DNA of 64,000 nucleotides from Alphaproteobacteria bacterium (GTDB lineage: Bacteria; Pseudomonadota; Alphaproteobacteria; UBA8366; GCA-2717185): the NCBI GenBank assembly GCA_040905865.1, contig JBBDQU010000072.1:1-64000 (forward strand), in the 5' to 3' direction. Below the pieces are notes generated by a model. That model made no database searches and was not told the DNA's origin. It was given only the letters and a program-made list of their open reading frames with translations. A program made the position numbers and the translations under genes. Positions within the stretch are counted from its first letter, which is position 1, and each line of letters begins with the position of its first letter. This document shows positions 38,029 to 41,204 of the stretch, in pieces.

Positions 38029-39564
38029 GTGTCTGGTATCCTTTCCCGCGGCAGGATGGCCGGTCGTTCGGCGCGGAGCAAACCTGTTGCGGTCATAGAT
38101 GTCGGGTCCAATTCCGTCCGGCTGGTCGTATTCGACGAAACCAAGCGGGTGCCGGTCCCCGTCTTCAATGAAAAAGTATCTTGCGGTCTTGGCCGCGGGC
38201 TGGATTCGACGGGGCGACTGCATCCTGACGGGATAGCGATGGCGCTGCAGAGCCTGCGGCGTTTCGTGGCGCTGACCGCAGCGATGGGCGTTGTGAATGT
38301 GGTCGCAGTCGCGACGGCGGCTGTCCGCGAGGCGTCGGACGGTCCCGCGTTTATCGACAGGGTGGCGGCGGAATGCGGCCTGCAGGTGAAGACGATCCCG
38401 GGTGAGGAGGAAGCCCGGCTTTCCGCGCTTGGCGTCCATTCGGCATTTCCGGATGCCGACGGATTCATGGCCGATCTCGGCGGCGCCAGTGTCGAACTCG
38501 TCCGGATGGATAAGGGCGAATTGCGGGAGCAGGTGACGCTCCCGATAGGGCCGATACGGCTGGCCGAAGGCAATATCGATCCCGGGGAACTGATCAATCG
38601 CAATTTCGACACGCTGGACTGGATCGGAAAGGCGAAGGGCGGCACCTTCTATGCGGTCGGCGGGGCGTGGCGCGCCCTGGCGCGGGTGCATATGAATTAC
38701 ACGAAATATCCGCTCCTGGTGGCGCATCACTACCGGATCAGCCGCCGCGGCGCCCTGGATTTTGCGGAGCTGATCTCGCATCTCAGTCAGGATTCGCTGC
38801 GTCAGGTTCCGGGCCTGTCCAGGCGCCGGGCCGAAAGCCTGCCTTTTGCCGCCCAGATGCTTGAAAACCTGGTGCAGCGATCCGGTGTTTCGCAGGTCGT
38901 GTTTTCCGCGTTCGGCCTGCGCGAGGGCTGTATCTACGACCGCCTGTCGAAGCGCCTCAGAAAGGAAGACCCACTGATCGCCATGGCGCGAGACCTTGCG
39001 TGGCGGACCGGCCGGGTGACGGCCGATGGCGAAGCGCTGTACCGCTGGATGTCGCCCGTGTTCCCGGGTGAAAGCGAACGCGAGGCCAGATTGCGCCGCA
39101 CGGCATGCCTGCTGGCGGACCTGGAATGGTCGGAACATCCGGATTACCGGGTGGAGCACGCGCTGCTGCGAATCCTGCGTTATCCCCTGGTCGGTGTGGA
39201 TCATGCCGGTCGCGCTTATCTGGGTTTTTCAGTGGCGTCGCGACATGCGCGGGTACGCGACGTTTTGTTCGACCGTTTCCTGCGCTCCCTGATGGACGAT
39301 GTCGAAGCCAACCGCGCCCGTTCGACGGGGCTGGCCATGCGGCTCGGCTATACCGTCTCGGGCGGGGTCATTTCGCTGCTGGAACAGACATCGGTCCGGC
39401 GCGAGCGCGGTGACCTGACCCTGGAACTGCCGGATCACGCGGCTGTCCTGGTCGGCGATGTGGTGCAGCGGCGCTTTGAGTCGCTGGCGTCGTCCCTGAA
39501 CTGCACGCCGAAAATCGTATACAGCCAAACTGCCAAACCGTCGCCGGCACAGAACGGGAAGTAA
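38029..39564 (+). CDS. ppx: Exopolyphosphatase (Ppx/GppA family)
   Basis: Ppx removes terminal phosphates from polyphosphate, or pppGpp in GppA-type members. The ASKHA ATPase motifs are present: VAVIDVGSNSVRLVVFDE (phosphate 1) and FMADLGGASVELVRM (phosphate 2), followed by an HD-like C-terminal region. I chose GTG 38029 (511 residues) because GAAGG lies eight bases upstream and it clears the ppk1 stop by 4 nt; ATG 37984 would overlap ppk1 by 41 nt. Co-transcription with ppk1 gives paired synthesis and degradation of polyphosphate. Confidence 0.93.
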   Translation: MSGILSRGRMAGRSARSKPVAVIDVGSNSVRLVVFDETKRVPVPVFNEKVSCGLGRGLDSTGRLHPDGIAMALQSLRRFVALTAAMGVVNVVAVATAAVREASDGPAFIDRVAAECGLQVKTIPGEEEARLSALGVHSAFPDADGFMADLGGASVELVRMDKGELREQVTLPIGPIRLAEGNIDPGELINRNFDTLDWIGKAKGGTFYAVGGAWRALARVHMNYTKYPLLVAHHYRISRRGALDFAELISHLSQDSLRQVPGLSRRRAESLPFAAQMLENLVQRSGVSQVVFSAFGLREGCIYDRLSKRLRKEDPLIAMARDLAWRTGRVTADGEALYRWMSPVFPGESEREARLRRTACLLADLEWSEHPDYRVEHALLRILRYPLVGVDHAGRAYLGFSVASRHARVRDVLFDRFLRSLMDDVEANRARSTGLAMRLGYTVSGGVISLLEQTSVRRERGDLTLELPDHAAVLVGDVVQRRFESLASSLNCTPKIVYSQTAKPSPAQNGK

Positions 39565-39580: not shown

Positions 39581-40023
39581 CTATTGCGGCAGGACTGAGC
39601 GGACTGTTTCGATAATGTTGTACGACTGTCCATCCTGCATGCGGGTCAGCGCGAACCGGGCGCCGTACCGACCGACGGGAAGCGAATTTTTCGTTTCGTG
39701 TGGCAGGATGAAAAATTCGACGCCGCACGGGCGTGACACCTGGCCGGAACGATTCGCCAGTTGCCGTACGCTGCTGTCGTGCAGGGAAAAGGTATAGCTG
39801 CCGCCCGCATATCCGTTCCGTCGTGGCGGTTGCTGGCCAGCGGGCCGCACCGGTAGTCGCGGTATCCATGGCCCGAGTCATGATCGACATATTTCTGAAG
39901 CGAACAGCTCCGGCCGATATCGCAGTCCACCGGAAAAGACAGGACCGGCGGGGCGGGTTCGGCGATAGCGTTTGCCGCGACAGTCAGTAACGCGAGGATG
40001 CCCAGTATCCGGACGGGCGCCAT
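39581..40023 (-). pseudogene. Broken M23-peptidase-like remnant with frame switch
   Basis: A frame from 40023 encodes a signal peptide and then SFPVDCDIG, KYVDHD, RDYRCGPL and HDGTD (to about 39811), which strongly resemble the N-terminal part of secreted M23 metallopeptidases, the last being the first zinc-ligand motif. Beyond this the same frame becomes arginine/serine-rich noise. In another frame, from about 39805 to the stop at 39581, coding-like sequence with GC-rich third positions resumes (YTFSLHDSSVRQL, VEFFILPHET, LPVGRYGARFALTRMQDG). The rest of the M23 domain is missing and the second part is not M23-like, so a deletion with frameshift is likely. Confidence 0.6.
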
Positions 40024-40031
40024 GGTTGCTT

Positions 40032-41204
40032 CTAGGCGCTCTTCAGATTGATGACGCGGGTCTTGTGCCCCTTGACCGCCAGGGCGACTTCGCCCCGTTT
40101 CAGCGCCAGCGCGTCCTCGCCGAAGATTTCCCGCCGCCAGCCCTGCAGGGCCGGTACGCTGGCATTGTCGTCCCCGGCGATCAGTTCGAGGTCGTCGGAA
40201 CTGGCGATCAGGCGCGGCGCGACGTCATGGGTTTCCGTCACATGCTTCAGCAGGACCTTCAGCAGGTCGGTGACGGCGCCGAGGCCCGACTGGCGGGATT
40301 GCTGTTTCGGCAATTGCGGCAGTTCCGAATCCGGCAGATTTCGCGCCCGGTTGACCGCCTCGATGATTTCCGCGCCGGCGGCGCTGTTCGCATAGCCCTT
40401 CGGCAGGGCCCGCAACCGCTCCAGCGCCTCCGTGCGCGCCGGCGCCTGCGCCGCGATCTCGAGAAGCGCGTCGTCCCGCAGAATCCGGTTGCGCGGTACA
40501 TCCCTGGTCTGTGCGGCGGTTTCGCGCCAGGCCGCGAGTTCCCGCAGGATCGCATGGAAGCGCGGGCTGTTGTTGCGGGACTTCAGGCGGCGCCATGCCA
40601 GTTCGGGCTCCAGCCGATAGGTATCCCGGTCCATCAGAATATTCATTTCCTGATCGAGCCAGTGCGTGCGGCCGCTTTCCTCCAGTTGCGTCGCCAGCTT
40701 TTCGTAGGCCGGTCGCAGATGGATGACATCTGCCAGCGCATAGGACAGTTGCTTCTGGGTCAGGGGGCGGTGCGCCCAGTCCGTAAACCGGGACGATTTG
40801 TCGGTCGCCGCGCCGACCAGCCTGGCGACAAGATTTTCGTAACTTACCTGGTCGCCGAAACCGCAGACCATGGCCGCGACCTGGGTATCGAAAAGCGGTT
40901 CGGGAATGGAGCCGGTGGCGTGGAAGAATATCTCCACATCCTGGCGGCCCGCATGGAACACCTTCAGCACGTCCCGGTTCGCCATCAGGTCATAGAGCGG
41001 TTGCAGGTCTATATCCGGCGCGAGAGTATCGATGGCCACCGCCTCGTCCGGGCCCGCGATCTGGACGAGGCACAGGCGTGGCCAATAGGTGCGGTCCCGC
41101 AAAAATTCGGTATCGACGGCGATATAATCGGCGCCGCTCACGCTCTTGCAGAAAGCCGAAAGGCGTCTGCTGTCTGTAATCGGTGTAATTTCCATGACTG
41201 ACAT
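40032..41204 (-). CDS. rnd: Ribonuclease D
   Basis: RNase D is a 3'-5' exoribonuclease in tRNA 3'-end maturation. The 390-residue protein has the DEDD residues in AVDTEFLRD (Asp31, Glu33), [12 protein letters not shown] and the YALADVIHL segment, followed by an HRDC domain ([18 protein letters not shown]). ATG 41204 fits the family N-terminus; a second in-frame ATG lies three codons later. The open frame upstream reads into the divergent aspS region and is not used. Confidence 0.95.

Follow-up and report, generated by a model that had tools for sequence, protein, structure and literature searches.

A stretch between rnd and ppx is very probably the pseudogene of a secreted M23 metallopeptidase broken by one internal deletion

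We examined positions 39581-40023 of the window, the whole 64,000-nucleotide stretch of alphaproteobacterial DNA that was analysed, and found that they very probably (about 0.9) hold the pseudogene of a secreted M23 (LytM-type) metallopeptidase broken by one internal deletion. Both coding parts of the stretch show homology to a single intact protein, the location of the gene is conserved, and one frame-breaking gap separates it from the intact copy. When whole, the gene normally follows rnd directly and converges on ppx. A single loss of internal sequence, measured as 562 bases against the gene of G001, a genome of the same genus, would have taken away almost the entire M23 domain together with the zinc site's HxH half, and the same event would have put the C-terminal part out of frame. 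The features are as follows.

38062-39564, plus strand: ppx, exopolyphosphatase, convergent with the remnant; a conserved neighbour (Pfam Ppx-GppA and Ppx_C; relatives).
39581-39808, minus strand: C-terminal part of the same probable peptidase, out of frame with its start (alignment to G001; tail search in relatives).
39808-39811, minus strand: probable point of deletion, where the G001 gene has 562 further bases (DNA alignment; length and codon positions recounted).
39811-40023, minus strand: N-terminal 71 codons of the probable M23 peptidase remnant (alignment to G001; N-part search in relatives).
40032-41195, minus strand: rnd, 3'-5' exonuclease with HRDC domain, just upstream of the remnant; a conserved neighbour (Pfam DNA_pol_A_exo1 and HRDC; relatives).

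The first minus-strand open reading frame runs from 40023 to 39646 and encodes 125 residues, with a start that resembles a signal peptide (judged by eye) and HDGTD at residues 67-71. A second minus-strand frame, 39850-39581, carries LPVGRYGARFALTRMQDG followed by a stop, giving an 89-residue tail ORF. The two overlap at 39850-39646. Alignment to the G001 gene placed the frame switch at 39811-39808, so that the last 54 residues of the 125-residue ORF come from reading the tail DNA out of frame. The tail coding sequence itself occupies 39808-39584 (stop codon 39583-39581) and lies out of frame with 40023-39811, as the initial annotation had noted when it described a coding signal moving to another frame.

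The zinc site of M23 peptidases consists of HxxxD and HxH. The 125-residue ORF has HDGTD and lacks HxH, and it carries no Pfam M23 domain; searches of Pfam and NCBIfam with it returned no match. Its product, at most a 125-residue stub, would be inactive as a peptidase. With the 89-residue ORF the same searches brought up just RE_endonuc in Pfam, which at E 0.059 and 13.6 bits stays under the cut-off of 23.4 and was put down to chance.

G001 has one intact M23 gene between rnd and ppx, open across all 339 codons. The N part of the remnant aligned to residues 9-76 of its product with 81% identity (score 302; best of 500 shuffles 51), which bears out the earlier reading of these 71 codons as the N-terminus of an M23 peptidase up to HDGTD. 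The tail, which had been described as unrelated, turned out to be the C-terminal part of the same protein: it aligned to residues 266-337 of 339 with 61% identity (score 218; best of 500 shuffles 43). A search of genome contigs returned one locus, the G001 record. This locus (contig C213) is identical across 3,123 compared bases to JAQCHR010000245.1, from the MAG 'Proteobacteria bacterium isolate casp40-mb.248'.

Aligned as DNA, the window and G001 show a single frame-breaking gap, of 562 bases, between 39809 and 39808, with the exact junction point uncertain by a few bases. The sole other gap, 15 bases near the start, is in frame. Since 562 leaves a remainder of 1 on division by three, the large gap alone explains the change of frame. 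Lost relative to G001 are the final base of codon 77 and codons 78-264, so of the Pfam M23 match (G001 residues 72-189) just the opening residues survive. The window retains HDGTD (residue 72 in G001) and no longer has YAHL (140) or HLHF (175). As the deletion is gauged against a relative, its true size may differ from 562 bases by an in-frame amount. Exact matches shared by the two breakpoint regions in the G001 copy reach no more than 5 bases, and for this reason we claim no repeat mechanism.

Searches with each part alone were run against 39 genomes (that of the window and 38 relatives). The tail alone found open frames of 336-375 codons in G001, G003, G005, G007, G009 and G010, with E 2.3e-5 or better, and more weakly two further frames, one of 344 codons in G016 (E 0.002) and one of 349 in G033 (E 0.017). 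At E up to 1 the tail matched in 25 of the 39 genomes, the window's own included, and most of the weak matches look like chance. The N part alone recovered the same frames, with matches at E up to 1 in 35 of 39 genomes, chance ones among them. No tail-only match was obtained in G004 or G006, and the one in G008 (E 0.038) was on another contig, contained internal stops and was considered unrelated. With the whole G001 protein as query, the C-terminal part was found to be present in both G006 and G008. The intact proteins of G001, G003 and G005 matched the Pfam M23 domain with E values of 1.9e-21, 1.7e-22 and 1.5e-20, respectively.

The ppx-rnd interval was then compared among ten family relatives (G001-G010). 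Both genes are intact beside the window remnant. An open M23 frame adjoins ppx in eight of the ten, and in seven (G001, G003, G005, G007, G008, G009 and G010) it adjoins both ppx and rnd, with the qualification that only the last 32 residues of rnd precede the contig end in G001 and that both neighbours are partial in G008. The eighth is G006, where the M23 frame adjoins ppx and there is no rnd on that contig. The matched M23 stretches of the seven relatives other than G001 contain no stop, and all seven have HVH. G002 (64% complete) yielded neither ppx, rnd nor a credible M23 match and is uninformative on the fate of the gene.

G004 (95% complete) has ppx and rnd and no M23 gene between them; on its contig C25 the matched ends of the two genes are 71 bases apart (2858-2928). 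No M23 match was detected on this contig at E up to 1e-3, and the best N-part match in the whole genome had an E value of 0.48. The gene persists in G006 and G008, which belong to the same genus, so its absence from G004 most likely reflects loss, probably a separate and complete one. More distantly, in the order-level relative G016 (contig C6, 1886-4047), rnd and the M23 gene are adjacent, with no ppx match in the 7,001 bases examined, which suggests that the older link of the M23 gene is with rnd.

The initial annotation had proposed a deletion that fused two genes, or a programmed frame change in an unusual protein. Its inference of a deletion behind the join holds; the second gene does not, as relatives encode both parts in one frame. 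The different frames of the two parts do suggest separate origins at first sight, but in G001 and other relatives a single protein matches both parts in the same order, and the single open M23 frame beside ppx in eight of ten relatives likewise speaks against fusion, which we regard as refuted. Relatives carrying both parts in one intact ORF, the observation that the initial annotation itself had named as contradicting it, are what we found in G001 and others. A shortened, still functional protein whose N- and C-terminal parts are joined by a programmed frame change would account for the overlap of the frames (39850-39646) and for the coding-like character of both parts. A coding-like pattern is, however, expected after a recent deletion, and in all eight relatives examined the middle is present within a single open frame; the intact genes use no frame change, and in G001 some 187 additional residues, which include most of the catalytic domain, separate the two parts. 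This explanation is unsupported. Equally far-fetched is a remnant still expressed as a secreted protein without peptidase domain, for instance a binding protein, its parts joined by a frame slip. The stretch can be explained with no fusion of two genes and no programmed frame change.

A more serious alternative, though still an unlikely one, is an assembly artefact, in which the gene is whole in the organism and the assembly dropped its middle. Substitution rates are relevant here. By the NG86 method, dN/dS between the window and G001 was 0.30 (N part) and 0.50 (tail), and between the window and G003 0.22 and 0.51; the intact pair G001-G003 gave 0.28 and 0.54 over the same segments. There was thus no clear sign of relaxed constraint or decay in the window parts relative to G001 and G003, as might be anticipated from an artefact, although segments of about 70 codons make this a weak test. 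G005 alone gives a comparison that runs toward relaxed constraint (tail dN/dS 0.53 for the window and 0.26 for G001), with dS above 1.2 and saturated in both cases and N-part dS for G001-G005 not defined. For ppx, dN/dS between the window and G001 was 0.11. Against an artefact, completeness of the window's genome assembly is given as 100% and contamination as 1.62%, and the N part and the tail occur in that assembly once each. A clean internal loss without end repeats (matches of 5 bases or fewer in G001) would also be an unusual assembly error. The whole G001 protein found no second copy of the gene in the window's genome, only the two window parts and weaker matches to the M23 domains of four other proteins; the Pfam M23 model identified five domains there, all elsewhere than the remnant. 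We infer that the deletion is real in the organism and fairly recent; a recent deletion fits the data best.

The apparent chimera is thereby corrected to one gene with an internal deletion, an ordinary pseudogene that in itself matters little. If the lesion is real, the gene has by this count been broken or lost at least two times in the family (window and G004), which suggests that the family can do without this rnd-linked M23 peptidase and lost it on more than one occasion.

Compared with its G001 orthologue, the remnant has the same position between rnd and ppx; it differs in being frameshifted and in lacking codons 78-264, whereas the orthologue has a single open frame and a complete M23 domain. 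That domain in the intact relative resembles those of the DipM/LytM/M23 endopeptidases (NCBIfam NF050804, E 1.2e-13; PDB 7qrl, E 1.3e-11). The likeness to DipM is limited to the domain, which scores 50.7 bits where the DipM cut-off is 900, and the window remnant differs from all these endopeptidases in being without the domain.
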